A stretch of 64,000 bases of DNA, taken from positions 18,743,501-18,807,500 of the forward strand of contig NC_088933.1 in the NCBI RefSeq assembly GCF_038396675.1, given 5' to 3'. The DNA comes from Hydra vulgaris. Lineage: Eukaryota > Cnidaria > Hydrozoa > Anthoathecata > Hydridae. The notes under the pieces were generated by a model. The model searched no databases, was not told the origin of the DNA, and saw only the letters and a program-made list of their open reading frames with translations. Both the position numbers and the translations under genes were made by a program. This document shows positions 3,001 to 55,433 of the stretch, piece by piece; the first letter of the stretch is position 1; each line of letters begins with the position of its first letter.

Positions 3001-3722
3001 AATGAGATTTTTTTTTATCAAGAAAGAAAGAAAAAACTCTGGAGTATTAAAGACGCTCAATTTCAAGTAATGGATTTTAAAGAACATCTGTTATTTCATT
3101 GAAATTTTTGGTGGAAATGCAGAATCTTCGTTAAGGAAAATGCGGTTGGTATTTGAAAGTTTAATTATAATTTTGTGAATTTAAGTCACTCATTTAGATT
3201 TAGAAAGTGTTATATTTTTATAGTATTTTTCTTAGGTATTTAAAATATAAACAAATGGTTTGTGAAGGAATTATTAAGCCAGAAAAGTTACCACCCACAG
3301 ACCGTGCTGCTTATTTTCATGGTCTTAGAGTTCATCGACAAGTTGTTGAATGGAAAATGCTGGATGAATCTTTCAACTTGGATCCTAAAGAATGGGGATG
3401 GAAGTTAGATAATGGTTGTCTTCTTCCAACACCAACAGACAATGATGTGGCACCACCCAATATATTAAAAGTAATTCATCCGTTTTTCCTGCAAGAGCAG
3501 GAAAAACGGATTAAAATGCATGCCTGCATGCGGTGGCTGTCATGAGCAAGACTGCAGTAATAAAACGGTAAATTTTATTTTTTAAATATACACATAATCT
3601 TCTTTAAATATTTTTGCTTTTTTTGGAATACAAATATTTTGCATTTTTAGGATTTTGAAATTGAAGAAGATTCAAGTGATGAAATTGAAAACAAGAGAAA
3701 TTTATTTGATGATTTGTTTTGA
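1..3722 (+). pseudogene. Decayed, intron-bearing copy of a dispersed GKGTFHGMG/IEQTLMRS/ADDTD family
   Basis: Consecutive blocks in changing frames match one large uncharacterised protein family that I recognise as high-copy in cnidarians and other animals. They are: LITLSDVH-like N-terminus (30-340), VADNVDHN..GKGTFHGMG (577-840), VTFDQPLW..GFHTMMSFLGSIG (875-1600), IEQTLMRSLKCNGGLTRGRG (1678-2088), LFDGY...KGDAD (2152-2931), VVADDTDIAV (2935-3100), LPPTDRAAYFHGLRVH..LDPKEWGWKL (3236-3475), CGGCHEQDCSNKT (3526-3567) and an acidic tail DFEIEEDSSDE..DDLF ending at TGA 3720-3722. The acidic DGY, GDAD and DDTD patches look like a PIN/FEN-type nuclease fold; that is inference. Two introns keep consistent phases: 3145-3235 (phase 2, joins M-R-YLKY) and 3568-3650 (phase 0). 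Frameshifts near 375, 545, 850, 1640 and 2088, an in-frame TAA near 2930 and an internal deletion near 3100 make it non-functional. Its mobile status is not shown; no terminal repeats were found. Confidence 0.75.
3478..3511. repeat. Perfect inverted duplication, 15-bp arms, 4-nt loop
   Basis: Left arm ATCCGTTTTTCCTGC (3478-3492), loop AAGA, and exact reverse complement at 3497-3511. It sits where the family protein above should run from PPNILKVI into its Cys-rich end, and it is translated there as an alien HPFFLQEQEKRIK segment. Confidence 0.9.
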
Positions 3723-4316
3723 GAAAAGTAAGATATCGGACATCTAATTTTAAAGAAATTTGCATTCAAGTCTTAAAGTTATTTTAAAAGAATATATTAT
3801 TTTCTAATTTTTTCTTATTTAAAATTGCGCACAGACAAAAGTTATATTATTATGTTTTGAAAACAAAAAATATAACATTTTAACGATTTTACACTTTTCA
3901 AACATAAAAAATAACTTTCTTTTAACTCTAATAACTTACACTTTTCAAAACGTAAAAAAACTTAAAAAACAATTTTTTTCAAGTAATAGTTCTTATATAA
4001 ATATTGATCAGCATAAAATTTTTGATCCAACGATATAAAGTTTATGATATTTTGGTGCTGTCAAATTGCCCCTTTTTTGTACCCCAAATTGCCCCAAAAG
4101 GAATGTTCCCGTAGCGCAATCAACGGGGCTTTTTTTTACGCTCATCCAGACACTGTCTACTTTCTCTCTGCAAAATTTCAGCTTTATACCATTTTTGTCC
4201 GGGTTCGACCTTATTTTTCGCTAATTCTCTCCTACTATTATTTTGATCTGGTGATACGCATTCGTGACTTATTTATAGTTTTTTATTATTATTTGTAAGT
4301 TAAAGACTATGAAATC
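3723..4316. other. AT-rich intergenic stretch
   Basis: No coding signal. Contains a small GC-richer patch at 4060-4135 with repeated AAATTGCCCC and a CCCGTAGCGC..ACGGGG inverted pair, possibly the remnant of a transposon end left of the Tc1 copy. Confidence 0.4.
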
Positions 4317-5353
4317 ATGGCTCATAAAGTTTTTAACATTTGGTTTTTGATACCTGGATTTGAAACGGGACGTGGTAAGCGTTTAAAGAATGAAGTACTA
4401 GCAGTAATCAACGCATGTAAAGATACAGACTTATCTAATCGGGAAATTACAAAGAACATTAAAAGACCTACAAAAGTGGTTAATAATTACTTCAAGATTA
4501 GCGTTAATTATGGAGCTCATAAGAAAAGTGGTGGCAAAAATAAAACTGATAATCGTACTAAACAAGTTATTGTAGGTCTTGTTACTGCTCAGCACATGAA
4601 TACATCTCAAATTCTTGTTGATTTACAATTACCTGTAACTGTTTAACGTGAAGATTTTACATGAAGATCCAAACACAGTTTGGAAAAGCGTAAACCAAGA
4701 CCAAAACTTACTGTTCGTCATAAAGATGTTAGATTACAATTTGCAAAAGAACAAATGTCTTCGCAGGAAGAGTGGCATCAAGTTCTCTTTAGTGATGAAA
4801 AAAAGTTCAATCTAGATGGTCCTGATGGCTATCACTATTACTGGCACGATCTTCAAAAAGAAAAAGAAACTCGAATGAGTCGTAACTTTGGTGGTGGAAC
4901 TGTTATGGTTTTGGGGGCTTTTGCCTTTGCTGGAAAACAACCACTGGCATTGATTTCGACAAAAAAGAATTCACAGGACTACATTGACTTATTAGAAATT
5001 AGTTTGCTTGAACATGGTGAAGAATTGATGGGTGAAAGTTTCACTTTTTAACAAGACAATGTGCTATCCATAACTCAAAGCTTACAAAAGCTTAATTTAG
5101 AGAGAAAAATATTCACGTAATGGAATGGCCCGCATGCAGTCCAGGTCTTAACCCAATTGAAAATCTATGAAAAATACTTTCTAGAAAGGTTTATGAAAAT
5201 GGTAAGCAATATGAATCCGCATTGGAGCTGAAAACTCGTATCAGAGAAGCTTGGAATGAAATATCTATAGAAACTATCCAAAATCTTGTGACTAATATGT
5301 CAAGTCACATATTTGAAGTCATTAAAAATTCAGGAAGCAGTACTAAATATTAA
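4317..5353 (+). pseudogene. Tc1/mariner transposase, broken
   Basis: A helix-turn-helix N-terminal part (GRGKRLKNEVLAVINACK..., 4370-4640) is followed by a DDE domain. The first Asp lies in [20 protein letters not shown] (4770-4830), the [11 protein letters not shown] strand at 4890-4925, the second Asp in QDN (5053-5061), and the family-typical SPGLNPIENL with the terminal acidic residue at about 5138-5168. The C-terminal helices end ...SGSSTKY then TAA 5351-5353. A frame change at 4646-4680, an in-frame TAA just before QDN, a shift after it and further TAA/TGA codons near 5096 and 5168 disable it. This is a cut-and-paste DNA transposase family acting on its own terminal repeats at TA targets. 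No clear left terminal repeat was found, so this copy is truncated or strongly diverged. Confidence 0.85.
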
Positions 5354-5401
5354 AGAGCATAGAACAAAATATTTTTTGTATTTTCTTGTATATTACGTAA
5401 A

Positions 5402-5604
5402 TAAGGCAAATTCTATTTTCTCCACAAATTGAATACTTTAAATTTTTTTTCCACTTGTAATTAATTAAACATACCAATTTAAAAACTTTTTAATTGTAAT
5501 AGAAGACAATAAGAAATAGGGTAGATTTAATCATTGTTTCATTGCCATTTTTGTTAAATTAGAACGAAAAAGAAAGGTGAGGCTAATTCTATTTTCTCCG
5601 CTGT
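5402..5604. repeat. Repeated AATTCTATTTTCTCC motif, probable right end of the Tc1 copy
   Basis: AGGCAAATTCTATTTTCTCC (5403-5422) recurs as AGGCTAATTCTATTTTCTCC followed by GCTG (5580-5603). Read inward the distal copy begins CAGCGGAGAAAATAG, which has the CAG start common in Tc1-like inverted repeats. No matching left copy is visible. Confidence 0.45.
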
Positions 5605-6690
5605 AGATTTAAATTAACTTCAGGAAAGTTAGTGCTGTAAATATCATAGAAAGTTGACTTAAGAACTTTTTGATTTTACGAAGTTCTGGACAACTAGGTG
5701 GGTTCATAGTTTTAATAGACACCATCTCAACGTTGTTAGCGTTATACCATTCCATTTTTGTTCTATAATAATGTCAACAGGCTTAATCTGTCCAAAAAGT
5801 AACAATAGTTGAGTAAATGAATGAAAGACAAGAGATATTTTTGGAGGCACTAAGCGATGTAACGTTCAGCATTCTTTGTTTGCAATGTGAAAAACTGAAA
5901 TCTTTCTCGTCACAACTGCACAAAGATGTTAAAAAAACAATTTTCTAAAATTTTATTTTGCATCTAATATTTAAACTTCTTTAGAATGTTTTTTTTTGCA
6001 CAGCGCAGACAACAACTTGTTCAAACAACTTGTTTCAATTCGCTTTTTACATACGTTTAATAAACAGCCAATTTTGCTCTTGGCTAATTGGTTGTTTATG
6101 GTTTCATTATCAAGATTTCGTTCGGATATTTTATGAGACATATCGTCTCGACATTTAAGCAAAAACTTAGTGGGGTTGTTGCCCCGGCCCCCACGGTTTT
6201 GGGAGCGTTGATTTAAAACAAGATTTTTTTAAAAGAAACTCTGGAAATGAAATCTTTGACTAATGACATAGATAGGGGTCTCCTGCTTTAAAATAGCCCC
6301 GAGCCCAAGTCTTAATCTATCACTAACTGTGGTGGGTGATGTTTCATATCTTGGATCGTGATTTTTTTCAGATGTACTCGAATGGTTAAATGTTACGTCA
6401 CATTTACATAGCTTACGTAATGAGATTTCAAAGTGTGCATGGTTTAAACATAATCTGATGAACAGCCGGAGTATGTTTATATTTGAACTGGTGTTATCCA
6501 AAGGATATTTGTTTGTTTTAAAACCTTTTTTAAAAATATCAGCAAAAAGTTTATAAAATAAAGGTCTTAAAAAAACAAAAAAAAACTTTTAATTGGGTTA
6601 TTGAATATAGCAAATCATCCTGAAATTAATTGTAGCAATAATAACTTTATGTAGTAATAATAAGTTATAACTTATTTTCCAACTATTTTC
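5605..6690. other. Intergenic, no recognised gene
   Basis: Two minus-strand open frames (5971-6162, 63 aa; 6229-6501, 90 aa) show no recognisable motif. A GC-rich patch (6166-6205) resembles a transposon edge but has no partner that I could find. Confidence 0.3.
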
Positions 6691-6838
6691 CAAACAATAA
6701 AGGTTATTATTTACAAGTTTACTGGTAAATAATAGCCTTTATTGTTTCAAAACAGTAAAGGTTATTATTTACAAGTATACTTATAAATAATAACCTTTAT
6801 TGTTTGGAAGAAATTTCCAAACAATAAAGATTATTATT
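6691..6838. repeat. Tandem hairpins built from one arm sequence
   Basis: CAAACAATAAAGGTTATTAT (6691-6710) and its inverse are repeated. Hairpin 1 spans 6691-6747 and hairpin 2 about 6752-6805, and an orphan arm lies at 6818-6838 (CCAAACAATAAAGATTATTA). Loops are about 8-11 nt. This may be a nested short inverted-repeat element; no protein is encoded. Confidence 0.75.
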
Positions 6839-9725
6839 CAGATTTGTTAATAAGACGATTGAAAAATTTATGAATAACTGTTTAATTTCTTTTATAGAAG
6901 TATAGATTTATAGATAAACCGTCAAATTATTAGAAGAACTTCAGATATTTCAGGTCAAAAGATTTTAATATTATTATTTCTGGGTTGAATTATGTAAAAA
7001 ATAAGAAATCGATAAACGATAAGTAATCCAAGAGTTTTCTTTTTGAAAAGTTATTATTAAAACTATGGACTGGTTTTAAACAATCGCTCAAGTTATACTT
7101 TTTTCAAAGGCTACCATATAATTGGATTTGTTGGCAACAATGCCAACAGACTTTTAGATAAGCTAAATATGAATGTGATATTACAAGGATCAAGGAAAAT
7201 CTGATTTATCTTAAATGCTTAAAAAATAACAAGCAATGAACCAAGTTATCTTTAAAAAATAAATACTGATATTAAACTTGCTGTTAAGAAACTTATACCA
7301 TTTTATGCTAATTTAATGGAAAATGTTAATATCTACTTTTAAAATGTTTCTTCAAATATACCCTGGAAAGTTAATATGGCAGTTATATAGATAACTTACT
7401 TGGAATTTTTTCAGAACAAGCAGCTGGTTCGTCGTAAGTTTAAAAACATTTGATTAGTTGTAAAAGACAACAAAAACACTCAGAATATCCTTAGCTATCG
7501 ATTAAATAGTTAATACTTTCATAATTGAAGTTAAGTTTCAAAATTGTTATTTATGTATAAACATTAAATTTTTAATTGCATGAAAGATACTGTTGATTAA
7601 GAATTGATAAAATAATTTTGTTAAAATTTATAAGAATTAATAAAATAAACTTGTTTATTATAAAGTTTATTTTTTTATATATAAAGTTTATCACAAAATT
7701 TAGTCTGTATATTATTATATAAAATGTAAACAACTATTTTTAATATTAAATGCGATTTTTTTCAAAAATTGCTGTTGTTTTTATGAGTATGTTTTTTGAA
7801 ATGTGCAAAACTTTAATTTCTGAAAAATTACTAACTCAAAAAAGGATTTTAAAACAAAAAACGCCCATAACTTTTTAAATATTTATTCTATATTTGCATT
7901 ACATCCTATATTTCCATTGATATGCTTCTATTTTTTAAATGAAGTCACAAATATTGACTTGCTTACTTACTTTTAACTTTTAAAGATGTCTTAAATAATA
8001 CGCTATCGTATATTTTTTCAGTTTTTTGCATAACTCTGAATAACCCGAATTTATTTGTAAGCACCTCCCGGTTTCCTCCCGGTTGGAAATAAGCAAGCGA
8101 CTAGCTAGCTTTATTTAAATATTTTAGGGAATTTTTTTTCTTGTATTTTTCTTTTCATTTTTCTTTTATGTTTTAAAAAATTTGATTTTTAGTACTGTAT
8201 CTAATATATTTATGATAATTATTAAACTTATAACACTGTGACAAGTTATTACACTTGTAACAACTTATGATAACGCTGTGATTTTATTATGTCATACTAT
8301 CTTGATATCAGCATTACCACAATATATCGTTAGCGACATATCGTAGCATTGTAGCTACAATAGTTGCAACAAACTTATAGCAGGGTCATTCCATGCCAAA
8401 TGGACCAAAGTTTTAGGATTTCAATATGGTCCCCCTCAGATTTTGATGAAACCTAGTGGGTTTGTTAATATCAATGAGAAAGACAATTCCTGAAAATTTC
8501 AGAATAAAATCTTTTGTGGTTCATGAGATATGGTCATTTGAAATTTCTGATTTTTCCAAAAATAAAAACTTCAGTAGCAAAAATATGATTTGTTCATACT
8601 TAAAAAAATTTTAAAAACCTTCTATTTTTTTTATTGTATACAACTCTAGACTTACTTTAATAAAACTTTGACATCGAATTCTTGAATGTCACATTTTTTC
8701 CATAATGGCTACCTAAAAAACCAAAAAAATTGTTTGTTAGTATAAAAAGTTGATTTTTGATGAGTCAATATACAAAACCTGCATTTTAAGAAGTGAAAAG
8801 AAATATTTTTTTAGTTTCTATATATGATAGGCTTCTAAATTTTTAGAAATTTACTGATAAGATACAATTCAGTATTAAATTATAGACCTCTGAAAATAGC
8901 TGCGGCTAAAACATAGGAAAATGTGTCTCCACTTCAAATCACCGGTAACCTAGGATCAATAGTGGTTTTATTAAGATTTTTTTTTCTTCTAATTTAATAG
9001 ACTTTGCAGTGATTTCAGAAGAAAAAAAAGTGAGTAATCCTGGGAAAGTTACAAAATCAGAACAGTGAAAATTACCTAAAATACATTAAAAACAAAAATA
9101 AAGTTATTGTTGTACTTTAGTTTGTATTATATATTGTTATACAAAGTATCTATGAACATAAAAGTATTTTATCATCAGTACTAGAAATAAGTCTTTAATT
9201 AATTCTGAATTAAACTCAATTTTTAAATAGCCCCAGCTCTTTCCTGCCCCCCCTCCCCCGATTATTTACTTTTTAACATTTACATTTTTTCCCAGAACTT
9301 AGAAAAAAATTGTAATTGAACACTTCTCCTAACATTGTGTGTCTGGTTTTATGTCTGATGTATGAAGTGCCTTTATGCCCAAACACATCACTAAACATAA
9401 ACACATAAAAACTGAAATTTAGTTTTTAATGTTTTCATATAAAACTTATCAGTAGCCTATTAGGTAAAACTGAAATGAAAGACTTTTAGTCTAATTTACC
9501 TAATATTTAATATCATGACTATAAATTTTATAACATTTTTTCAACACATTCACGATTCCACCCTTCCTTATTAATTTGACTTATTTGATTATCATTTTCA
9601 AATTTAGATTACAATTTATACCAAGTTGTAAGAGCTATTTGAATTGTCAACATAATCCAATGTTGATTATGTAATAAATAGGTTATTATGTAATAAACAA
9701 TCAATATAAACATTGAATCTTTTAA
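6839..9725. other. AT-rich stretch with a probable transposon-end motif
   Basis: No open frame of note. 8381-8475 (AGGGTCATTCCATGCCAAAT and following) resembles a dispersed-element terminus and may belong to the decayed copy at 9726-10584. No inverted partner was identified, so the boundary is not supported. A TTTTTTTTTCTTCT / AGAAGAAAAAAAA pair occurs at 8968-9030. Confidence 0.3.
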
Positions 9726-10584
9726 ATGATTTTTGCTAAAAAACTTAGACCAAATGGTGTATTCCTATTTGAGGTGCTTCAGGTCTCCATTAAGTATGTG
9801 TTTGTGAGTACCACCAAAATGCAGATTAAAGAAACTGGTCAGAATTGTAAACCAAAGTCAAGCAGCATGACGGTAGAGCCAAATTTTTATAAGAATTTCT
9901 TAAGAGCAGGTTAACACTTAAGTGATTCTTCACATGCAGTGGCTTAAAAATTACCGAAAATTCTGATACAGTTTGGGTTATTGCTCACTGCAATGATTTA
10001 TCAATTCTTGTTAGTCATGTTGTTCAATCTCACAAAATATTTTAGTAGATATTTTGTTAAGCTTGGAATTAATGGTGGTACACGTTTTCTCAAGTTTTTT
10101 CTAAGCATTGTTGATACTGCGTTAAGGGTTGATATCAGCTCAACACCTCAAAAACAATCTCTGACTCCAAAGACTGGCAAAGACACTGGAATTACGAGAC
10201 AAATTCTTGTTGCGGTATTAGAAGACTTGCCAAAAACTCACTCCAAAATTGAACAAATCTGGTCACTGATTAATGCAAAATGAGTTTAACTAATTTTGGC
10301 TTGCGATATGAAAGTTGCAAATATAATTTGTGGTCTTCAAACCCATTTAAGAATGCATTCTTGAATGCAGGAAGCTTCTTGAAAATGTGGATGTGCTTCA
10401 GGATTTTGCTGATACAAACTCGGTGCCCAACATTCTTCACATAATTGAGGCATTCAAAAGTTTCAATTTAGTTGTAAAATCTTGCTTTGGATTCATCCTT
10501 CAGCGGAAGTTTGTTGAAACAATTGAAAATTTTAAAAGATGTTTTTTAAAGATAACTGGTGCAAGCTTTATATATTTGCCTTAG
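9726..10584 (+). pseudogene. Decayed copy of the dispersed KLGINGG / VTPKxH-type family
   Basis: Three frames carry ordered blocks of a multi-copy uncharacterised family: VSIKYVFVSTTKMQIKETGQ..SMTVEPNFY (9780-9890), SRYFVKLGINGGTRFLKFFL (10041-10100) followed by an ITRQILVAVLEDLPKTH region (10188-10245), and ILHIIEAFKSFNLVVKSCFG (10430-10490). The Gly-rich KLGINGG strand is the family's most conserved block and is matched by KVCGDNGGGSF in the minus-strand copy at 60.7-62.7 kb. Frame changes near 9915 and 10285 and missing downstream blocks show that it is dead. No catalytic chemistry can be assigned from the sequence. The immediate 3' neighbour is a SINE. Confidence 0.6.
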
Positions 10585-10590
10585 AAATAA

Positions 10591-10746
10591 AGGATCCGTG
10601 GTTCAAACCCCACCTCTGGGCAAGTTTTGCTACATCGATTAGGAAGGAGGCGTAAACTTCCAATTAAATGCTCATCCCTGATGCTCTGTGATAAGATGGT
10701 AAGGACTTCTTAGGGCACCTAAATAAAATTAAAGAAAAAAAAAAAG
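10591..10746 (+). mobile_element. tRNA-derived SINE, family A, 5'-truncated
   Basis: It begins in the B-box-like GATCCGTGGTTCAAACCCC and keeps the family tail (GGAAGGAGGCGTAAACTTCC, CTCTGTGATAAGATGGTAAG, ACTTCTTAGGGCACCTAAAT) before an A-rich end. The same tail occurs inverted at 17947-18120 and 20278-20478. Confidence 0.8.
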
Positions 10747-11599
10747 CTTAACACAAAGTTCACATTGTCTTCTACCTCATCAAAGATTTCATCAGTTGCA
10801 AAAGATTGCCCTTGGGCCCTATAGTAAACAAACTGTCGAAACTGCTCATCAAGACTTTTATAAATATTGGTATAAACAAAACAATAACTTATAATGGTAT
10901 AAATAAACAATAAGTACAAAGAAAGATTGTTATGCTGCAAAACTGATCTAAACAGTAAGCATCTTTAAAGAAATGCTACCATAATTCAATTTATGAGATT
11001 AGGCAGCAGAAAATCATAGCTTACGGTTTAATGAACATTTAAACCATTTTAATCCTTAACTGCTGTTAGTAATTATGAATTTTAATATTACATATAAAAA
11101 TATTAAAGAGTATTTGACTAAAAGAGTATATTAAGCTATTTGAAATAATTTTTTTGTAGCGAGAAAATCAAAGACCATGTCTTACAACTTAATCAGATGC
11201 TATTCGATGGTAATATAATGTAAAAAATAGTTACTTTATTACTTCATTTTGAAAGTCAATGTGTTTAAAAAAATTTCAAGGGCCAATAAAAATTCTTTTA
11301 ACAAAAACGTTTTTTTTTGTTTTACTAACTGATAGTCCTTTTGTCAGGTTTTACACTTTTTTTGCACTTTTTTTTGCATTTTGGCAGTAACCAAAATAAA
11401 GTAAAGTATAACTTTAAGAAATGTTGAGATATTTACGCTTTGCATAAGACAATTCAAAGCTTGCTTCAACTACAAGTCATGAAATTTTGACAGTATCGAA
11501 GTTTTTGGTTTCATCTTCAGCAAGCTCCCTAGCATTTTCTTCTTTTCTCTCTAGCATTTTCTTCTTTTTTCATTTTTTTTTCTATTATTAATTCTATAT
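10747..11599. other. No gene seen
   Basis: AT-rich, homopolymer-rich sequence with a minus-strand 73-codon frame (10719-10940) that overlaps the SINE tail and has no recognisable motif. The 11540-11580 stretch is a CTTCTTTT-type low-complexity tract. Confidence 0.3.
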
Positions 11600-12310
11600 T
11601 CATTTGTTTACATATTTCTCTAATCTAATTAAAAACTTTATTAATTTCAGCACTTCTAAAATACTAAAAATGTCCTGATCTCTTTTTTGTAGAGATGTAC
11701 ATTGTTTATACTCTCCAGAATCAAACGCCATAAATATAAAAATAGTAAACTTATTTAAACATTTATACGAATTTAAACATTTGTACAAGGATTTAAATAG
11801 ATATAACGCATCTCCAACAGAACGTTCATTTTGAATTACATTTAGCAATGAAATAATAGATACCAAAGTTTTTTTTACAACATTAATTGTATTAAATTTT
11901 GAACACCATCTTGTATTAACAGCCATTTTAAGACTGATTCTGCTTACAGATGTAATTATGTTCCAAAGACTTGTAGAAGAGAAAAATAATGAGTTTTTCT
12001 ATGAGAAAAAATACTCCAACTAAATTTAAGCTGTGTTCACAGCAAGGGATATATTGGGATAAGGGATTTTCGATATATATTTTCATATTCAGCATATTAT
12101 GTGAATGTTTTGTAAACGCATACACACACGAATTATGCTTATTCTTGTTCATAACATAAGCAATAACACTCTTTTTTTGGGAAACAAATAAAATGCGTAT
12201 ATGAATTTTTTTCCCTAGACAACGATACAAGGTAGGTATATGCAATTTATCTGAAATGATTTTGGCGCCCTTCGAATGCTGCGTCCTTGGCAACTGCCCA
12301 TATGCCAACG
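11600..12310 (-). pseudogene. hAT-type transposase fragment (ZMYM1/DUF4371-like)
   Basis: The minus strand reads a catalytic-core pattern. The 11928-12308 frame contains IPCCEHSLNLVGVFF (the hAT C-x2-H-SLNLV signature). It is followed, in the 11600-11926 frame, by MAVNTRWCSKFNTINVVKKT, matching the family's S-x-TRW-S segment, and then a QNERSVGDALYLFKSL helix. The order and spacing fit the middle of a hAT transposase. The first Asp block, the C-terminal dimerisation block and the ends are absent, so only an internal relic remains. Confidence 0.6.
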
Positions 12311-12965
12311 CCTAGCTACGCTTCTGCCTTAATCAATAAAGCAGTAAAAAAATACAGTCCGCATCGTTATTTGATAGTTATAAGAGTAAATAAAATTCCA
12401 ATTTTGCATTTTATTGCACTAAAGATACCTGAATGACATTACGATTGAATTAGCTTCAGGAATTTCCATTGAATGAAGGCCAATAAAATCTTCTTAAATT
12501 TGTAAACTGTCATTCACCCAGCAAAGAAAGATAACAAGTTGTTCAAAATCAAGACTGTCCTGAAGAGACTTTAAAGGAGGGTGTGTGTGTGTGTGACGTA
12601 TCTGTTTTATGCCAATTAAGGCCCAAAATTTCTTTTTGCCTAGGATCTGGAAGAAAAAAAAAAAAGTCCTCCTTAGCTGACATTTGCTGACTGCCAATTA
12701 TAGATCCAATTTTACCGACTCAAGTATCCAATATGCCGACTAGTAAATTTAGTCGAGTTGGAAGGGGGGGCAAGACACCCCTACGCCTCCCTCAGGAAGG
12801 CTCTGTTCAAGATTCAATGCATCGTTAATCTAATTTACCATGGTGGTAGATGAGATTAATTATACATCCTGCAAATTGGATTTTGATGAGATATTGAGCA
12901 TTATCCTATGTGATTACCTGAGAAAATTAGTTTAACAATTAACTAATTAAATAATTAATTAATAT
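12311..12965. other. No gene seen; short (TG)n
   Basis: Contains a short GTGTGTGTGTGTGTG run (12580-12594) and a G-rich patch (12763-12770). A minus-strand 67-codon frame (12494-12697) has no recognisable motif. Confidence 0.3.
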
Positions 12966-13194
<229 letters not shown>

Positions 13195-13196
13195 AC

Positions 13197-13373
13197 ACAC
13201 ACTAAAAAAAAAAGGAAATTTTAAGTAAGGTATAACTTTTTACCTTCTAAGGAGAAATATTTCTAACTTTATATCTTTACGGTAGAAAATTGTAGGAAAA
13301 ATCATTATTTTTAGTATAATTTTTTACCTCAGAAGGTACAAAACTATGGCAGAAAATTCTACTTTTTCTTTTA

Positions 13374-13377
<4 letters not shown>
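13197..13377. mobile_element. ~180-bp MITE between two (TA)n arrays
   Basis: Ends are inverted: CACACTAAAAAAAAAAGGAA (left) against TACTTTTTCTTTTAGTGTG (right), with internal inverted pairs TACCTTCTAAGG and CCTCAGAAGGTA. Both flanks are (TA)n, so a target duplication cannot be read. It encodes no protein. Confidence 0.7.
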
Positions 13378-13380
<3 letters not shown>

Positions 13381-13457
<77 letters not shown>

Positions 13458-13473
13458 GTATATATATATATAT
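13381..13473. repeat. (TA)n microsatellite
   Basis: Array with two CTG interruptions near its right end. It lies between the MITE and the TIR element that starts at 13478. Confidence 0.95.
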
Positions 13474-14139
13474 CTGTTGACCAAATCTGGAACAGCGGAC
13501 CTTAAATGGGAAATCACGTTTTTGTAGTTATTAACATATTTAAAAGATTATATTGAAATATTTAAATATTTATTTATATTTGAAAGAGCTTTAAAATAAG
13601 ACAAATTTCATTCGAATCGCCCAGTAATTGACCGAGTTAATATTATTTTTATAACGGTACATAAAATACCGAGTATTTTTCCGAAAAACACAGTTTAAGT
13701 TAAACTATAATAACTGTCAAGCAAATCATTAAACTATCATAAAAATTAAGTTTTTTTTTCGTATGTCTCTTTTCTACAATGCCTAGGCTGCAAAATAAGA
13801 CATTATTCATGAAAATATTCCAACAGTTATGTGAAAAATCTAAACTTTGCTTACTCTTAACATGCCAGAATTGACGCTATAGATTTAGCGGCAAAATTTA
13901 AAAGTTTATTATTTAAATCAAAATGCAATAACAATATTACTGATGCAATTATTGATATTTTTCAATTATTTTTAAAGAAAACCTTCAAAATAAATAAAAG
14001 TTGGTAATAAAAATAAAACATTAATTTAAAAATTTTTAATTTTAAAATTAATAAAAATACAAAAAATTAAAAAAAAAGTTTTTATTTTTTTATTTTTGTG
14101 TTAAAAGTTTAATGTAAAACTCAAACTAACTTTAATGTA

Positions 14140-14271
14140 TTACTCTGTAGGTTTTTGGCAGGTAAACTTTCCCCTTATTTTACTATTTCTATATCCAACA
14201 TCCCCACAAAATTCACATTTTGGTGGAGCACGAACAAGATTGATACTGCATTTGTCTGAGGTTTTGGGCAT
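14140..14271 (-). CDS. 43-aa ORF with Cys pairs inside the TIR element
   Basis: The frame reads MPKTSDKCSINLV..APPKCEFCGDVGY..GKFTCQKPTE and stops at 14140. The C-x2-C followed by a distant C resembles the C-terminal Cys-rich finger of some DDE transposases such as piggyBac. That parallel is weak: only this tail remains and no catalytic domain is present. It is probably the relic 3' end of the element's transposase rather than a working small gene. Confidence 0.35.
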   Translation of the reverse strand: MPKTSDKCSINLVRAPPKCEFCGDVGYRNSKIRGKFTCQKPTE

Positions 14272-14760
14272 TGCAAATCTTTAGAATTTTCGATAAAACA
14301 ACTTTCTAAAATCTATAGGCTATCACTGCAAACTCCAATTTGTTAGATTATAGTTAATTTGGGTCAGACCTATAATCAAAGTTCCCTAACCCTAGCCGGA
14401 ACCCCTAACCTTACCAATAACTATACAACAGTTTAATCAATCATCCATAACAACTATTATTACTATAATTAATAGGATGAAAGTAGGTCATTTAAAAGAT
14501 TAAAGACCACAAGACTTATAGACACGAGTATGGCATTCTGTAAACATTACACTGCATGTCACTGTGACTGCAACTATTTTGATAAAAAATAATAATTCAG
14601 TACTTACATCATTTTAGAAACAAAACTATACAACTTAGTTTATAACTTTATGGCATTTTAAATGATTTTATGAGTACTTACATCGACTGAAACTTTGTAA
14701 AAAAAGTTATTATTTTCTATACCATCTATAATTATAAATAACTAAGAAGAAGCCGAATGA

Positions 14761-14829
14761 CTGTAATGTTACTGAGCATCAACCTGTAATGTTACTGAGC
14801 ATCGACCTGTAATGTTACTGAGCATCAAC
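14761..14829. repeat. Tandem repeat, 3 x 23 bp
   Basis: Three back-to-back units CTGTAATGTTACTGAGCATC + RAC, with one substitution. Confidence 0.95.
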
Positions 14830-15365
14830 AATCAAAAATTTATATTCATAAAATTTAATTTGTTTTGTTAATATATATTTTAGTACTTATATCTATTTTA
14901 CATTTTCAAAATATAATTAATTTATAATTATAGTTCATAGTTTTCTTGTTATAAGAATCAACCACTTAAAGTTATTGTTAAACTAAAAAATATTTTAAAT
15001 ACCATACTATACCATACTATCCTTGAGATTTGGGTCATAATAGCGCATGAGTACATAACCTATTAAATCTGGCGACGTTATTCAACAGTAAACAGAACGA
15101 GACCTTATGTGGGTTATATGACTAAAACACGCTGTATCTCAAAACAACTTTTTCCATTTAAGGCCCCTTCCTCCAGATTTGGTCACACACACATATATAA
15201 GAAGAGTACACGGGAAAAACGGCAGAGTCATTAATTTAATGGTAAAATAAATTTTTAATCTTTCAGGATTGAATTAATTTACAAAAATTTAAAGTTTGTT
15301 TAAACCATTTAATTGTAAAGTTAATTTAAATTAACAATGTTAACTTAACTATTAAAATATCTTAA

Positions 15366-15401
15366 AGTAATTTTAACACAACTATTTGTGTTAAAATTAC
15401 T
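15366..15401. repeat. Perfect inverted duplication, 15-bp arms, 6-nt loop
   Basis: AGTAATTTTAACACA (15366-15380), loop ACTATT, exact inverse at 15387-15401. Confidence 0.85.
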
Positions 15402-15454
15402 AAAGTGATAAAATTTTAAATATATATGATTTGTTGATTATTTAATCAACTATT

Positions 15455-15671
15455 CGTCTAGTTTTTTTCCTCGAACATCAGCTCTTTGGAATTCGCTTCC
15501 TTCATCTTGCTTTCCTGATTCATATAATTTGCTATCTTTTAAGTCGTCCGTCAATCGTTATCTTGCTCTACAATCTTCATCTTTTCTCTTTCAGTAACTT
15601 CCAACTTTAATTAGTGGCTGCTTGCAGCCTTGTTGGAAGCGAAGATGTTTAAAAAAAAAAAAAAAAAAAAC
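15455..15671 (+). mobile_element. Non-LTR retrotransposon 3' end
   Basis: The plus frame reads FFPRTSALWNSLPSSCFPDS, typical of the C-terminal tail of a jockey/CR1-group reverse-transcriptase ORF, then SFKSSVNRYL. It is followed by a short 3' UTR (GTGGCTGCTTGCAGCCTTG) and a poly-A run at 15652-15670. The fragment is 5'-truncated, as is usual for LINE insertions. It probably belongs to the same LINE group as the endonuclease fragments at 20.6-21.8 and 36.9-37.7 kb (inference). Confidence 0.75.
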
Positions 15672-15935
15672 TTATATTACAAATTCTAATTTACAAATTT
15701 GCCGACTTTTCAAAAATGATCAGTCACGTTTTCGAAGTTTACTAGAATTTCTCTGTACACATTAAGTAAGGCTAATCTGACTTGTCTGTTTTTTACCCTT
15801 CGACATTACAATTTTTCATGAGAAAAATTGCATAAATGTCCAGTATAAGTGCAACTTTTTTTTCGAAACAATTGACTGAGCCCATTTGTTAGAGCGAACA
15901 CATATACAGCACATCCTAAAAACACAATAAAATCA

Positions 15936-15988
15936 CTTTCCTTAATGGATAATAACAAAACTTGCTTTTATTATTATCCATTAAGGAA

Positions 15989-15990
<2 letters not shown>
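15936..15990. repeat. Perfect inverted duplication, 20-bp arms, 15-nt loop
   Basis: CTTTCCTTAATGGATAATAA (15936-15955) and its exact inverse at 15971-15990, immediately before a (TA)n array. Confidence 0.9.
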
Positions 15991-16104
<114 letters not shown>

Positions 16105-16247
16105 GCGCAAGGGGCATGCAAATTATGCGGTCGCATAGGGCGTCAGCGTGGCAGGAGCACCTCGCTGGCCTAGCCAAACTTTTATTTATTTATTTTATTC
16201 TAATTTTGGTTTTAAAAAAAGTTCATATACTGTGTTGTTTACATAAT

Positions 16248-16545
16248 AGGGGCGCTAAAGTTTATACTAAACTGTTAATTTTTTACTTTTTTTCTCAGCA
16301 CTTCAATGAAAAAATTAATAGATCGAGAATAGTAATTAATTATTTGAAAGAATAAATTTGTGAGTTAATTGTATATTTAAATTACGTTTTTTTTTATGTT
16401 AAATGTTTATTGTAATAGTAAACTCACATTAGGGGCGCCGAATTTTATATTTTAAACTATTTTGAATGTATTCGCACTTCAATGAAAAAATAGTTATAGC
16501 AAAAAGTAGTAGTTTGCTAATCATTTGAAAGAATTTGTGTATCCT
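16248..16545. repeat. Diverged direct duplication (about 180-bp spacing)
   Basis: Two copies of AGGGGCGC..(A/T)-rich..TTAAACT..CACTTCAATGAAAAAAT..ATTTGAAAGAAT (starting at 16248 and 16431). No coding content; origin unknown. Confidence 0.6.
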
Positions 16546-17944
16546 CATGCCGGGAAAAAAAAACCTTCGGGTTTCTTTCATAGAAAACCCAAATCAGATA
16601 TGGATAGAGAAGACAAAAAACAAGTAAAGTCATTAGATTAAATTTTTTTTTAGATTGGAAAAGCAAGATCTTAACGATAATCAGCATCAATTCCAGGTAA
16701 GATATGTTATAAGAGTACATTTATAGCTATCAAGTTTGTTAACTTATACAAAATAATAATAAGTTAAAGAGATGATAGATTTTCCCTTACAGCTAGAAAA
16801 AACAACAACTTGTACTCTATGAGCATAAGACGTCAGGAAAAATTCAGTCTCTCTTGATGAAGCAATTGAAGCTGAATCTTTTTTTTGTACAACAGCGCTT
16901 TAATTTACAACCAAGTACCAGTATGAGTACGTCAATTTCATTTTTATTAAAGGTTTAATCTTTTCTTTAAAAAAAATTGTATAAAATTACAGTACAAAGT
17001 CTTACTTTAAAAAACTTCAGAGCATCAGATAACATTTTCTTGAACTTGTTCTGGTCTTAGATATATCTAGGCAAAGGTTGAGAGCTTGCTTGTTAGACGA
17101 GGTTTTAAAAAAAGAACATTCTTACAAAATATGGGTGACCAAGGTTATGATAATAGATTACACGTAAAGGGAAAGAACAATTAGGTTGACGTACAATAAA
17201 AGATTCTTGCCCTAAATCCACTAGCTTTTTTCGTTCCTTGTGAAAGCCATTCACTAAACCTTGTTTTCAATGATGCAGCATTTTTCTGCACTTTAGCTGT
17301 TAACTTTTTTAGCAGCATTCAGGAGGTTTATAACTTTTTTTTCTGAATCAACCCATATATGGAGTATATTAACAAATCATATTACCAATTTGACTGTTAA
17401 TCCTCTAAGTGAAACTCGTTGGGAGAGCAGGATAGATATCCTTGAATCTTTGTGATACCATATTGATAAGATTTATGACACTGTCTATGAATCCACATTA
17501 GATTCCAAGATTGATGCTTTTAGAAAATGTACCGCTAAGGAAATTGCCAAGAAAATTACAGATTTCTTCTAAAATTCTTCTGCTCTTTGGTCTCTTGGTA
17601 TAATCTCGTCTCGTTCAAATTTAATTTAGTAAGCAAAACACTTAACTGTTAATCTGCAGAGCACTTTGAAACTTGTTGAAAGTGCCGAGACTTTTTGGAG
17701 AACATGAGATCGGAAAATGGGCTGTATAGTGTTATTACATATGCCACGGAACTAACCAAATAACTGGACATCTAAAGCCAAATAACTGGACATCGATCTA
17801 AAGTTCTCTGATGAAGTTATGGTCAGGTCAAAAAGAACAAAAAGCAATTTCACTATGAAGGTAAAGATAAATCTGCGTAGTCGGCAATGGAGTCTTTTAA
17901 AGTAAATTTCTATTTTGTAGTTTTAGACGCTGCTATTAATTCTT

Positions 17945-17946
<2 letters not shown>

Positions 17947-17981
<35 letters not shown>

Positions 17982-18120
17982 TTTCTTTAGGTGCCCCAAG
18001 AAGTCCTAACGGTCTTATCACAGAGCACCGCGGAAGTGCATTTGACCAGGAAGTTCACGCCTTCGAACCTGGATCTCCTGCTTTGATAGCAAGCGCTCTA
18101 ACCACTGCGCCACGGCCGCA
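17947..18120 (-). mobile_element. tRNA-derived SINE, family A, internal deletion
   Basis: Read on the minus strand it starts TGCGGCCGTGGCGCAGTGGT, carries an A-box-like TGGCGCAGTGGTTAGAGC and a B-box-like GGTTCGAA, and ends in the family tail GGGGCACCTAAAGAAAC and a long poly-A (poly-T 17947-17980 on plus). Compared with the copy at 20278-20478 it lacks about 40 bp before the B box. It is nested inside the hAT pseudogene, so it inserted later. Confidence 0.9.
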
Positions 18121-18505
18121 CAATTCTAAATCTCAGAAAAATTTGAACAGATTGAAAATCACAGCAAACATTTCGAATACCTCTATAACATGAAAAATTT
18201 TAAAAAATGTGAAAAAGATGCAGTTAAAGAAAAATGCAAAAAACTACACTCCGTTTTGGCAGCTGATGGCAAGAGTGACGTCAATAGGAATGAACTGTTT
18301 GATGAAATTGTAATTGTAACTCTAATGTTGCTAAAAGATAGCAGTCCCAAAACAACATTATTATTGGCAACATTGTCAAAACTATTTGGTTGACATCATT
18401 CCTAAGTAGCATTTCCTTTAGCATTGAAAATTTTGCTATTGCTCCTGGTACCATTGACCAGCGAAGAAAGGAGTTTTTCCAAACTAAAAATGTTCAAAAA
18501 TCACC

Positions 18506-18566
18506 TTCGATTGACTCTTTCTCAGGACCGCCAATATAGGCGGTCCATGAGAAAGAGTCAATCGAA
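18506..18566. repeat. Inverted duplication, 27-bp arms, 6-nt loop
   Basis: TTCGATTGACTCTTTCTCAG..ACCGCC (18506-18532), loop AATATA, inverse at 18539-18566 with one extra A. It replaces the expected C-terminal end of the hAT transposase. Confidence 0.9.
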
Positions 18567-18616
18567 TAAAGCAATTTAACTATTTATTAAGATATTATGT
18601 TTTTATTGTATTTTAC

Positions 18617-18805
18617 ACAGCGAAAAATCTAACGCTAACATAACGATTACATAACGGTAAATTAAAAGTTTGGCGTTATGTTTACCGTTATATTAGTAAT
18701 AAATATGTCTAAAGCGTTATGTTGGCCAAAGTTATTTGTATATTTGTATATAAATGTAAGGCGTTATGTTTAACCGTTATGTTTTCCGTTATGTTGGTTG
18801 GAAAT
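18617..18805. repeat. CGTTATG/CATAACG motif cluster
   Basis: About eight copies of CATAACG or its inverse in 190 bp, with CTAACATAACG near the left edge and CGTTATGTTGG at the right edge. Looks like a small non-autonomous inverted-repeat element. The flanking 18806-19300 shows nothing recognisable. Confidence 0.55.
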
Positions 18806-19303
18806 ATGTCATCACATAATAATATGACATCATAAAAGTATTTGTAAAAAAAGCGCGAGTTAAAAGAATCTTTGAAAATTAATTAATTGTTGCAGTTAAA
18901 CAATTTGATCAGAAGGTGTTATTAATTGTTAATGAAAATTTGAATTTAACTCTGATGCAGATTCTTTGTCCCAGTCTCTTTTAGGCGAACTGCTTGAGCA
19001 TAAAAAATTTAACAGTTTAGCAAAGTTAAAATAGTTAGCAAAAGCATAAAAAAGGAAAGTTTCATAATCAATAAAAGATTAAAAATCTAAGTTTAAATTT
19101 TATTAATATCCTATCAAATGACAGCGGAAAAATCTACCTAAAAACCGAATGTATGAAAGAAAAAGCAATCTTCTATTGTTGAGCTGTTCTTAATAAAATT
19201 CATTAGAATAAACGCCCCAATATTCCCCTACACTATTGGAGCCTTCAAAACACGCAGCGTAGTCTCTTTATAACTATTTTTATTTGTGACTCTTTTCCAA
19301 TTT

Positions 19304-19306
<3 letters not shown>

Positions 19307-19388
<82 letters not shown>
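19307..19388. repeat. (TA)n microsatellite
   Basis: Pure TA array ending at the start of a LINE fragment. Confidence 0.95.
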
Positions 19389-19391
<3 letters not shown>

Positions 19392-20112
19392 AATTAAAAA
19401 ACTTTATAGTAAACAAAACACCCATGCAGGATTGTATTTGGTGCACGCAGAACTTTTCATTGCGAACCTCTTTTAAGGAAGCTTGGTGCCCTAAGTATCT
19501 ATAAACTTAATATACACCAAGTTCTACAATTCATGTTTAAAATAAAACATGGGCTTTCTCCTAATGTATTTCACTCTTACTTTAGTGAAATCTCGCACAA
19601 GTATCCTACTAAATTTTTAATTAACAACTTAGTTGTACCAAAACTAATTTAAAACCAAGTTCTTACCAAATTCATTACTTTGAAACACTTTTCAAAGTTT
19701 ATTACAAAAAAAATAATATTCAAAACCTCTCTTTGGAACAATTCAGGAAAGAATCTGAGAGTCTCTTATTACAAAATGACTTTGATTTAAAATATCTCTT
19801 TTAAAATAAATAATATAAATTATCTGAAAAAATAGTTATTGACACTACTTCTCTTTTGTTGCAGTTTTATTTTTATTTATTTTTTTTGTTAAAAACTTTA
19901 ATACTTTTATGTTGTTGTTAATCTTTGATATATTGCGTTATATTTCAAGACTAATATTTATATTATATTTATATTTATATTGTAACTAACGTGTGTAAAA
20001 TTCTTATTACGTACTTAGCTACTTTTCTTTTTTGTATATAAACTGACGATTTTTTCAATGTAAATGGGGCTCGATAATAAGACAGTTTATGTGTTCTGCT
20101 TGCTCCAGCTCT
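19389..20112 (+). mobile_element. Non-LTR retrotransposon 3' fragment
   Basis: The frame reads FHCEPLLRKLGALSIYKLNI, then LQFMFKIKHGLSPNVFHSYF, the thumb/C-terminal part of a LINE reverse transcriptase, with stops downstream near 19650. The 3' UTR (TAAATGGGGCTCGATAATAA..CTTGCTCCAG) matches the end of the second copy at 58020-59040. 5' truncation is typical. It encodes nothing functional. Confidence 0.75.
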
Positions 20113-20182
20113 CTTATTTATTAACACGATTTATTTCATTGTAAAAATTAATATACGGCAAATAATAATAATTAAAAAATAT

Positions 20183-20190
20183 ATATATAT

Positions 20191-20277
<87 letters not shown>
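20183..20277. repeat. (TA)n microsatellite
   Basis: TA array abutting the poly-A tail side of the SINE at 20278. Confidence 0.95.
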
Positions 20278-20596
<319 letters not shown>

Positions 20597-20619
20597 GTAA
20601 GATGTGATTAGTAGATCTA

Positions 20620-21784: not shown

Positions 21785-22242
21785 ATTTAAATTGATTAAA
21801 GAACATGACTAAAAGTACAGATAGTACTCAGTACACTATTTAATAATCCAAGCAATATGAAAATACGAACTAATCAGAACTTTTTATATCGGATTTTGGC
21901 AAATTTAGAATTAATGCTACTTTTTGATTCTTTTTACCCACTGTGCAATGGTAATACACCTCTGGTCATTTTTATTGAATTTTAAATTTTAAAATCGTGA
22001 AAACATAGTAAACATTCAATTTCCTGAATTTTAAAGAATATTAAAACGGCTATAAAAAGAATATTAAAACGGCTATAATATTATCGGACGCTGCAACATG
22101 TTTTTAAAAATATGTAAATGTCACATCCAACAATACCTTACAAAGCCAAAAAGCTAAAACAAAAATCTTTGAGGAGCACTTTTTTTATTCTATTGGTAAT
22201 TCCCTGCATATATGATATATACTTTTATAGAATAAGATCTAT
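21785..22242. other. No gene seen
   Basis: AT-rich; GAATATTAAAACGGCTATAA is duplicated at about 22037-22080. Confidence 0.3.
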
Positions 22243-22388
22243 TCATGGCGTGCTTTATAACAGGCCTATTCACCGTGCGGATGACGTCATAAACTAGAGG
22301 CGAACATTTTGTATTTCCTCTTAACATTGAGTCAAAGTGCTCGCAAAATTATTTAGTCAATTTTTAAATTTTTTAATTTACTTTGTAA

Positions 22389-22626
22389 TTAACATAGGTC
22401 GTAAATACGGTGTCACGAATTGCAACGGCAATTTTGATAAAAGTTTTAAAGAAAAAACTTTTCGTCTTCCTCGAACACCAAAAGAAAGAAAAAATGGTTG
22501 GCTGTTATACAAAGAGACAACATACCTGATAAGAAAGACACCGTTGTTTGTGAAAGGCAATGGCTTGTTGCCAGTGTCTTGTTTGATACGTTTCGACAAA
22601 AGATTATGGCAAAGAAAGACCATGTG
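22389..22626 (+). pseudogene. THAP zinc-finger DNA-binding domain relic
   Basis: The frame reads VTNCNGNFDKSFKEKTFRLP (C plus the conserved FRLP), RTPKERKNGWLL, KTPLFVKGNGLLP. A THAP domain needs C2-CH zinc ligands and an AVPTIF-like box. Here the first Cys is replaced (GRKYG where CC or C-V is expected), the CERH ligand pair reads FVKGN, and the W is shifted (NGWLL), so the fold is lost. It sits just inside the left TIR, as in P-like transposases, whose THAP binds the element ends. It ends with a stop at 22625-22627. Confidence 0.7.
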
Positions 22627-24636: not shown

Positions 24637-24658
24637 AATAACCCTAACCCTAACCCTG
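24637..24658. repeat. Short interstitial telomere-like repeat
   Basis: AACCCTAACCCTAACCCT, three TTAGGG units on the complementary strand. A looser CCCTAACCCTAGC patch occurs at 14384-14410. Confidence 0.85.
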
Positions 24659-25830: not shown

Positions 25831-52472
<26,642 letters not shown>

Positions 52473-52549
52473 AAAAAAGTATTGATCGATTTAACTGCTG
52501 AAGGATATATTTTTTCATATATATATATATACATACATAGAAACTATTT

Positions 52550-52555
52550 ATTAAA
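52550..52555 (+). terminator. Candidate polyadenylation signal ATTAAA
   Basis: First ATTAAA-type hexamer downstream of the stop codon (78 nt). In sequence this AT-rich the match is weak evidence. Confidence 0.25.
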
Positions 52556-53102
52556 TCTATTGCATTATTTTAAATCTGTGATTTGGTTGTAATATATATA
52601 CATAAACACTCATTTGTAAGTTTATTTTTGTAAATAAGTTATTTTATTTGATTAGTAACATTCTTAACTTCTTTTTTAGTTCTAATTTTTTCATTGACAG
52701 GTTGATAACATAAACATGTGCGTTCAGTTAAATGTTTACCTGTTGACTGTCTAAATTATTTTAACAAATACTATATTTATCATTGTTCATTCAACATAAT
52801 CCACAAAATATAGCTGTTTTTATCCGCATATTAATACATACATACGTAAGACGTAAAATATTATTTTAAATGTATTTTTATAATTTATTTCTAAATGCTA
52901 AGCATTTAGACGGATTTTTTTATTGCACGCGGGGTAACATTGGCATTTCTGTCATTGCGATTTTGTCAAACGGCGGAAAAGTTAGTGATGAAAATTTTCC
53001 GGAGAATTTTCGTAAAATTTGCTCACAATTTCCAAAAAAATAAAAATTTTCAAAAAATCGCAATTAGATTATATACTTTAATAAAAGTCATTACTTTGTT
53101 TC
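52556..53102. other. Between DMTF1-like gene and hAT element
   Basis: AT-rich, no gene seen. Confidence 0.4.
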
Positions 53103-55379
53103 AGAAATAGAAGAGACTGGAATTACCGAAAAACGGTTCCTTCGGTAAATTTCGGTTCCTAATTTGATAAGGAACCGATAACTTCGGTTTTTTTCGATTC
53201 CTTATTTTAGGCAAGATTCGAAATTTCGGTAAATTTCGATTCCTTATTTTAAGAAAGAATCGAAATTACGGTAAATTTCGATTCCGATTCTGATAAAGAA
53301 CCGATAACTTCGGTTCTTTTCGATTCCTAATTTTAAGCAATAATCGAAATTACCGTAAATTTTGGTTTCAATTTCGGTTCTTAGCGGGAAATATCGCAAA
53401 AAATCGAAAATGCTACAAAGAATCGAAATTGTTACTAAGAATTGAAAAACTTGAATTTTTTTAATTTTTATTTTCAAAAATACAGTTGAAATACAGTTAT
53501 TCTAAATCACTATCAGTGAGATCAGTGACACTGTCCTTGCTGCCCTTGCGACTACCACTAGCACTGCTATAAGCTACGCTAGTAGAACTATCACTAGCTT
53601 CAGTATTAAATAAATCTTTAGATGCATCATATATAGGGTTTTTTTTCATTGGTGATTCAAGTACAAGTTTCCTTTTTTTAGCTCTTTGTAGTAGACTTTG
53701 AGACTGTGATTCATTTGGTTTCAAAAAACTTTTCATTTCTGTCTGTTTGGTTGATTGGGTTTGTGTAGATGGAGATGGTTGAGGTTGAGTCTGAGAAGTT
53801 GATGGTAGAGGTTGAGTCTGTGAAGTTGATGGGAGAGGTGGATGGTAGAGGTTGATCTTGAGAGGTGGATGGTAGAGGTTGAGACTGATAGCCTGGTTCA
53901 CCAGGGCATTTTTTGTCCCAGGACCTTATTTTTGATTTGACTAGTGGAAAGTTTTCTTTTATGAACATTATTTTTTGAAGGGTCTCTGCTTCATATTGTG
54001 TCTTTTATCACTAATAATATTTCCTCCTAATGAAAATAGCCTTTCTGAAGAGCATGAAGTCACTGGTGGACACAAGTACTTCCTTGCCATAGCAGCTAGT
54101 AATGGCAGTTCCTTTTGATTGACCTTCCACCATTCCGAAACCTTCACATCCTTAGCTGGCTTTTGCATAGACAAGTACCTTTTAAATTCCATCTAAAAAA
54201 AAATTTGAATTTACCGCAAAGAATCGAAAAAATATTTATAAGTATCGGAAATATTTATAAGAATCGAAATTATTATTAATAAAAATGAATATCTACCTTT
54301 AGAGGAGGCTCTGATGGTCCTGCCAAAGTTGGTGCATCATTTCCATCATTTTCCACGGCCATTCTCTCAAAATCATCCATATCTTCATCTAAGTTTGGCT
54401 GTGCAGAAGGTAATGAAGCCTCATAAGCCTTATTGTATTCTCTGGTAGTTGGATGATTGTCTACCAGTTGGTCTATTATTCCATCTAAATGATCTTTGTT
54501 GCCCTTGATTAATGTGATAGAATAACCTCTATAAAATGGGTCAAACACACTTGCAAGATTAAAGTCATTAACTTCAGTGCCTTTATCTGGAATCCTAGTT
54601 TCCAAGTATTCTATAAACCTGGTCATTGCATCTTTAGCAATTCTTGAACCTGGAAAAGAAAAAAAAATATAAATAATCAAAATTGCATAATTTGTTGATA
54701 ATTATTCGAAAGAATCGAAATTTGTTGATAATTATCGAAATTATTAGTAAGAATCGAAAGAATCACAAAAAAATATTTTTTACCTGAAGTATTTTGTGTA
54801 ACTGTCCTATGGCACATAGTAATCAATGAAAAGAGGTGTTGCTGGATCTTGTGAACTGTAGGTGTTTTATCTGAGGACCAAATCTCTGAGTATTCTTGAC
54901 ATTTTGCCAAGAAAGGATGAAGTTCTGCAATTACTTGAAAATCTTCATCACTTGGTATAAGTATTGTCAAGTTTGCATTCAGGCTGTTATCTCTGACTAA
55001 CTTCAAACCTTGCTCATTTCTTAACACTGACTTGAACAGCATTGCATTTGAATTCCATCTTGTTTGCACTGGTTGGATTAGATTGATTGGATTACACCCT
55101 AGAGATTCACATTCTTGTTTGATTTCATACCAATCCTTAGTGCTTTGATGTGTCCTTTGAGCAAGTCTCTTGCACTTATCAACAATTACCTTAACCTCAC
55201 CATTTTCTAATGTGTCTTTCAAACAGTTGTTTAACATGTGATCAACACACACCAATTGCTTGTCCAATAAAGTTGATAAACTGACAGCTGCCTTCATGTT
55301 AGCTGCACCATCAGTCACACATGTTCTTTCTAGGTCAGGCCTTGCCAAGACTTCATATTTTGAAATCATAGTGTCTAAT

Positions 55380-55433
55380 CCTTTGGCAAGTAAAGGACCT
55401 GTTTTCCTAAACAGGTCCTTTACTTGCCAAAGG
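55380..55433. repeat. Perfect inverted duplication inside the hAT core exon, 25-bp arms, 4-nt loop
   Basis: Left arm 55380-55404 (CCTTTGGCAAGTAAAGGACC + TGTTT), loop TCCT, exact inverse 55409-55433. On the coding (minus) strand the downstream arm encodes the expected TGPLLAKGLDTM; the upstream arm is its inverted copy and shifts the frame. Confidence 0.95.

Follow-up and report, generated by a model that had tools for sequence, protein, structure and literature searches.

Perfect inverted repeats with short loops recur along a 64,000-nucleotide stretch of the Hydra vulgaris genome (the window, G000:C14:18743501-18807500, on contig NC_088933.1 of an assembly of 911.5 Mb in 15 contigs). Comparison with related sequence suggests that most of the hairpins whose history can be read are probably scars of foldback, or snap-back, templated insertion at the ends of a DNA break. 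Such foldback copying may be unusually common in this genome. Hairpins are named here by their first position in the window and described as arm length/loop length, and L-numbers denote stretches fetched elsewhere in the same assembly.

Repeat copies within the same genome made the history readable at eight sites. One ancestral arm facing one new arm was found at 55380, 32333, 33600, 41458, 47607 and 3478 in the window, and in L012 and L027 outside it; L019 shows the same pattern less cleanly. The window features concerned are as follows.

55380..55433, a perfect 25/4 hairpin within a transposon-like copy, from the window scan and paralog comparison
55410..55437, a 28-base insertion absent from comparable paralogs, from the alignment of family copies
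32333..32379, a 22/3 hairpin with an ancestral left arm and a new right arm, from four paralogs
33600..33645, a 21/4 hairpin formed by the terminus of a repeat family (right arm) and an inverted copy of that terminus (left arm), from eight fetched copies
41458..41507, a 23/4 hairpin whose left arm and loop come from an old repeat family and whose right arm is new, from seven relatives
47598..47673, a hairpin with 35-base arms and one mismatch, from the mismatch-tolerant scan, with a perfect 26/6 core at 47607-47664
3478..3511, a 15/4 hairpin with an ancestral right arm and a new left part, from six fetched copies

The site at 55380 is the cleanest of the polarised sites, with no ancestral base lost. 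Family copies read CCTGTTTTCCTA|TTTAAATG at this position, and the window carries 28 extra bases at the bar. The insert is missing from 24 aligned rows (23 places, L032 and L035 overlapping) and from the partial copy L033. It is composed of a 24-base inverted copy of the left flank followed by CAAG, and this CAAG completes a second small foldback, CTTGCC AAA GGCAAG. At the join, one pair is possible, between the last ancestral base, an A, and a T on the far side of TCCT (1 bp, loop 4). The insert, whose length is not a multiple of three, falls in the overlap of two open frames, neither of which was assigned a family in a Pfam search of six open frames that named only the polymerase described below.

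Other copies of this transposon-like family carry comparable events. L012 contains a 30/7 hairpin with an ancestral right arm; the new 30-base arm replaces 327-388 other bases of the seven compared rows, and the join is compatible with one G:C pair across 7 nt. In L027, a 57-base insertion private among 27 aligned rows consists of the inverted left flank, 8 bases and the inverted right flank. Both L027 palindromes have loop 0, and the two flanks directly adjoin each other in all seven rows shown, a set that includes the window twice. L019 carries a 22/0 insertion in a short-repeat region with few relatives and is less clean. Separately, the paired short stem-loops GAATCGAAATT / AAAGAACCGA at window positions 53257-53319 and at L012:3772-3834 are common to two copies of the family.

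The remaining polarised window hairpins belong to other repeats. At 32333, the four paralogs run about 80 bases past CTGAGAG, where the window instead turns back along itself, with AG:CT pairing across GAG (loop 3) at the join. The repeat element at 33600 is preceded by TA and starts GGGTGTCCC or GGATGTCCC in six of the eight fetched copies, L077 being preceded by CA and L079 differing; the inverted copy precedes the element end, with CC:GG pairing across 4 nt. The exact 33600 pattern (17-base arms, gap 0-30) has a single occurrence in the assembly, the window copy itself. The idea that repeat ends are a hotspot was dropped on this assembly-wide search, in which intact ends were uncounted and no internal control pattern was included. 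Of the seven 41458 relatives (73-76%), five match along the left arm and across the loop (CTCTGGG or a near variant) before diverging, and in L044 and L045 the alignment does not extend to that point; judged on these old paralogs, the join has about 2 bp of pairing and loop 4. The right arm at 47607 is the start point (query 391-403) of most long search matches, and L063 (74%) keeps both flanks, about 80 other bases standing in place of the new left arm and loop. At 3478, six fetched copies (88-90% by search) carry the right arm only. The new part repeats, in inverted form, a run of 19 ancestral bases, TCTTGCAGGAAAAACGGAT. Four of these (TCTT) are now missing from the parental strand, and some 54 bases of ancestral sequence were lost. 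A self-folded primer would have been unable to read TCTT; the 3478 event would therefore have used a template in trans or represent a centre-trimmed palindrome.

Foldback insertion at a break would proceed as follows. The 3' end exposed at a break, presumably a double-strand break, would fold on itself so that its last 1-2 bases pair with complementary bases slightly upstream across a loop of 3-7 nt. The folded end would be extended by about 15-30 bases along its own strand, probably by a polymerase-theta-type enzyme, and would then unfold, sometimes passing through a second folding round before joining. Finally, the two ends would be joined, and the intervening bases would be either kept or lost. 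Comparison with relatives shows one ancestral and one new arm, the bases at the join, the second foldback in 55380 and the copying back of both L027 flanks. Evidence for a preceding double-strand break is indirect and consists of the two-sided copy in L027 and the bases lost at 32333, 3478 and L012. Among the joins that can be read, a set without 47607, the self-priming geometry (1-2 bp, loop 3-7) fits five: 55380, L012, 32333, 33600 and 41458. The assembly also contains a predicted polymerase-theta-like domain at L098:108-1580 (G000:C12:57734413-57735885). It belongs to polymerase family A and occupies a single open frame of 490 codons; among solved structures Pol theta matches it best (E 7.5e-122), against 2.5e-60 for the best Pol I. 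According to PMC11292364, human polymerase theta can extend a stem-loop closed by two terminal base pairs, and Drosophila favours 1-3 bp separated by a 6-nt loop; PMC11724301 describes yeast foldback insertions of mostly 5-34 bp, made by Pol delta and end joining.

For the assessment of hairpin abundance, repeated units of 1-6 bases were masked and arms of low diversity were discarded. Ten perfect inverted repeats with an arm of at least 15 and a loop of at most 8 were present in the masked window (3478, 6795, 15366, 32333, 33600, 41458, 47607, 49461, 51579 and 55380), and 18506, with one extra base, is an eleventh window hairpin. No such hairpin arose in 200 dinucleotide shuffles of the window, where the longest arm with a loop of at most 8 was 14. 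The shuffles give an expectation per window of 0.125 at an arm length of 12 and of 1.04 at 10. Taken by itself, 36822 (12/3) is therefore of modest significance, and 36850 (9/4) is no longer than chance would produce. All twelve inverted repeats listed in the initial annotation were recovered at the positions given there; 49462 gains one base on each side (49461-49505, 21/3) and 15366 scores 16/4. Three further hairpins of the masked window scan are as follows.

15366..15401, a 16/4 hairpin
49461..49505, a 21/3 hairpin with 9% GC
6795..6829, a 15/5 hairpin absent from the initial list

The 6795-6829 hairpin overlaps two other structures, a 16/12 hairpin at 6756-6799 and, around both, a quasi-palindrome at 6688-6809 (60-base arms, 5 mismatches, loop 2). 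Elsewhere in the window, positions 1-1590 match G000:C14:18734202-18735791 at 100% over 1590 bases, a recent duplication whose other copy sits outside the window, some 9.3 kb upstream of its first position.

Outside the window, a sample of 66 stretches of at least 700 bases (261,635 bases in total, excluding copies of the window itself; most stretches flank repeat copies and some overlap one another) contained 11 hairpins of this class, including 1 in five random 10-kb stretches (50 kb). The density is higher in the window than in this sample (10 against 2.7 expected, P=0.0005). Loop lengths were tallied over both for 24 perfect hairpins with arms of at least 15 and loops of 0-15, leaving out 51579 and L033:1457 as family-intrinsic. 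Loops of 3-6 nt, where the initial annotation had placed a cluster, account for 11 of the 24 (P=0.02 against a flat spread), and loop 4 is the commonest (6/24; P=0.003, for a class picked post hoc); the clustering is thus partial, given the loops of 0-2 nt weighed below.

A mismatch-tolerant scan over the window and the other loci returned 36 hairpins, some of them transposon-intrinsic: 23 perfect, 8 with one mismatch, 3 with two and 2 with at least five (shuffle means: 0.6 perfect, 0.07 one-mismatch). This spread is what a continuing process plus decay would be predicted to leave. The arms had been described as unrelated to each other, and no inner 14-mer is common to any two of 36 catalogued hairpins. 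Six abutting hairpin pairs were observed against 0 in 30 shuffled sets; two of these are the same transposon-intrinsic stem-loops, and the others are 36822/36850, L027, L044 and L070. At L044:2154-2216, hairpins of 14/5 and 13/4 abut without an intervening base in DNA that has no covering relatives, possibly a two-ended foldback. The longest perfect hairpin found, at L046:127-230, has 51-base arms and a 2-base loop. At L067:865-955, a 28/2 hairpin is followed by an extra direct copy of part of the left arm and flank, an arrangement that suggests back-and-forth copying.

Four window hairpins stand apart from the polarised set.

18506..18566, a 27/6 hairpin with one extra base, an older event, from the same hairpin at two other loci
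51579..51612, a 15/4 hairpin shared by descent across a repeat family, from the family copies scored
36822..36848, a 12/3 hairpin adjoining the start of a repeat family, from the window scan
36850..36871, a 9/4 hairpin with a family-like left arm, from the window scan and family comparison

The 18506 structure comprises 19 perfect pairs, one extra base and 8 further pairs. The same hairpin, with changed arms, is found on C3 (89%) and C4 (81%) and is decayed at both, while four further copies, L056-L059 (77-79% by search), have the unfolded form. L055 also holds an inverted copy of the right flank, and the 18506 event may therefore have been two-sided. The 51579 hairpin is kept in 38 of the 39 other copies for which a score was obtained (the scoring covered 40 of 260 candidates). 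The hairpins do not form one uniform class: 51579 is a family trait, 18506 an older event at three loci, and 36850 short with a family-like left arm.

Several observations weigh against self-folding at a break as a complete account. The geometry of 3478, L019 and L027 is not the self-priming one, and simple self-folding cannot yield the 3478 geometry or loops of 0-2 nt. Such loops occur in 6 of the 24 perfect hairpins, and a second route therefore exists. L027, the sole recent two-sided case, has loop 0, and the two-ended reading of the 36822/36850 pair was dropped in view of the family-like left arm of 36850. A pairing of 1 bp is hardly distinguishable from none. The exact ancestral bases are uncertain at 41458, 47607 and 32333, which depend on old relatives (about 72-83% identity), and for one-sided events sequence cannot separate a break from a fork. 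The L098 domain is the single polymerase-A match found and carries no link to the hairpin events. Probably, the loop-0 cases and 3478 used a template in trans (the sister end or another strand at a fork) or are centre-trimmed palindromes. The initial proposal of a strand copied back on itself is thus partly supported: it is right in kind for most readable loci, including all those listed above as polarised (L019 less cleanly), with 51579 as a family trait outside it, and its hairpin-primed version agrees with the five joins and not with 3478 or the loop-0 cases.

Among the rival explanations, chance or AT bias draws on a window that is 71% A+T and on the chance-level hairpin at 36850. For the hairpin class it is refuted by the ten hairpins observed against none in 200 shuffles, and has next to no probability left. 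Inherited stem-loops of transposable elements do account for 51579 and for GAATCGAAATT / AAAGAACCGA at 53257-53319 and in L012, but the compared relatives lack the hairpin at 55380, 32333, 33600, 41458, 47607, 3478, L012 and L027. On these comparisons inheritance is refuted at eight sites as a general explanation and is quite improbable overall. Foldback artefacts occur in sequencing libraries, and artefacts of library or assembly (foldback reads, polishing errors) would suit the observation that the polarised hairpins are mostly private and their arms perfect. Against this, 18506 is common to three loci, the arms are mismatched in 13 of 36 hairpins, L027 is two-sided, and ancestral bases were also lost at 32333, 3478 and L012. 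The decay of 18506 at two loci together with the mismatched arms argues against a pure assembly artefact. This explanation, which had been named at the outset as one that could overturn the proposal, is refuted for 18506 and very improbable for the class.

Short-range template switching at the replication fork, in which a strand jumps, copies 15-30 bases backwards and returns with no break needed, is a possible though rather unlikely source of the set as a whole. It yields the same one-new-arm outcome, and the existence of loop-0 hairpins counts in its favour. PMC7954356 records 4017 significant template-switch events in great apes. By its logic, the event at 3478, where the template must begin 4 bases beyond the end of the primer, corresponds to an inter-strand switch in the four-point model. 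That model fits the one-sided events equally and 3478 better, while L027 needs two copies. The loop mode at 4 nt, the 1-2 terminal base pairs at five joins, the copying of both flanks in L027 and probably L055, and the loss of more than 300 bases at L012 speak against it as the general source. A mixture of break-end foldback and fork switching is quite possible.

Foldback insertion of this kind resembles known systems. Theta-mediated end joining (PMC11292364) shares the inverted flank copy beside the join, 1-3 bp priming, a short loop and inserts of 3 to 30 bp; the events here differ in being inherited genomic scars, for which the enzyme is presumed, in having a loop mode of 4 rather than the 6 of Drosophila theta joins, and in some longer arms, to 51 bases. 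Yeast local foldback inversions (PMC11724301) likewise are mostly 5-34 bp inverted insertions in which one end folds and is copied and the other is ligated, but they use 10-bp imperfect microhomology and a 41-nt loop, in contrast to 1-2 bp and 3-7 nt here. Work on template switches in great apes (PMC7954356) and RNA genes (PMC8794818) indicates that perfect inverted repeats can arise in a single event. In apes sequence is gained in most events, as here, with a median copied length of 12 (PMC7954356) against arms of mostly 15-30 in the present set. A cross-genome survey of perfect inverted repeats (PMC13155455) shares the criteria of arms of at least 10 and spacers of at most 8, and reports eukaryotic zero spacers as predominant and A/T-rich; its counts are not comparable with these because simple repeats were masked here. 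Among the titles listed in the limited open literature searched, none connected Hydra to template switching or to foldback insertion; the word hydra occurs once in PMC13155455.

The frequency of events was estimated in the transposon-like family of 55380 from 27 rows (two overlapping) with 96,754 aligned bases and 812 private substitutions. Three foldback events lie inside aligned segments (the window, L012 and L027); the L019 hairpin lies outside and was excluded. This gives one event per 271 private substitutions (95% limits 93-1312) or, without the window row, which was the route into the family, 2 events and one per 394 (109-3253). Rare insertions of at least 8 bases number 22 rows, 2 of them foldbacks; the others include several tandem duplications (e.g. 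L025, L027, L032), some microsatellite steps and a few that are unexplained. The great-ape tree carries about 60 million substitutions, which, with the 4017 events noted above, puts the ape template-switch rate at about one per 15,000 substitutions. The rate per substitution appears higher here than in apes, a large contrast that rests on 2-3 events in one family and on differing detection methods.

The mutation type is already known; its weight in this genome may be new. More tentatively, foldback copying could be hyperactive in this genome, with about 270-390 private substitutions for each inverted insertion of 17-30 bases, tens-fold the ape rate, both-end copying included, and with perfect hairpins continually born genome-wide. 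If the rate holds genome-wide, the animal would offer a natural archive of snap-back repair. Its many dated and polarisable events could then reveal the rules of priming, the limits on loop size and the lengths copied, without any need to induce breaks. The animal would also have a steady supply of new perfect stem-loops, relevant to the origin of hairpin RNAs and regulatory hairpins.

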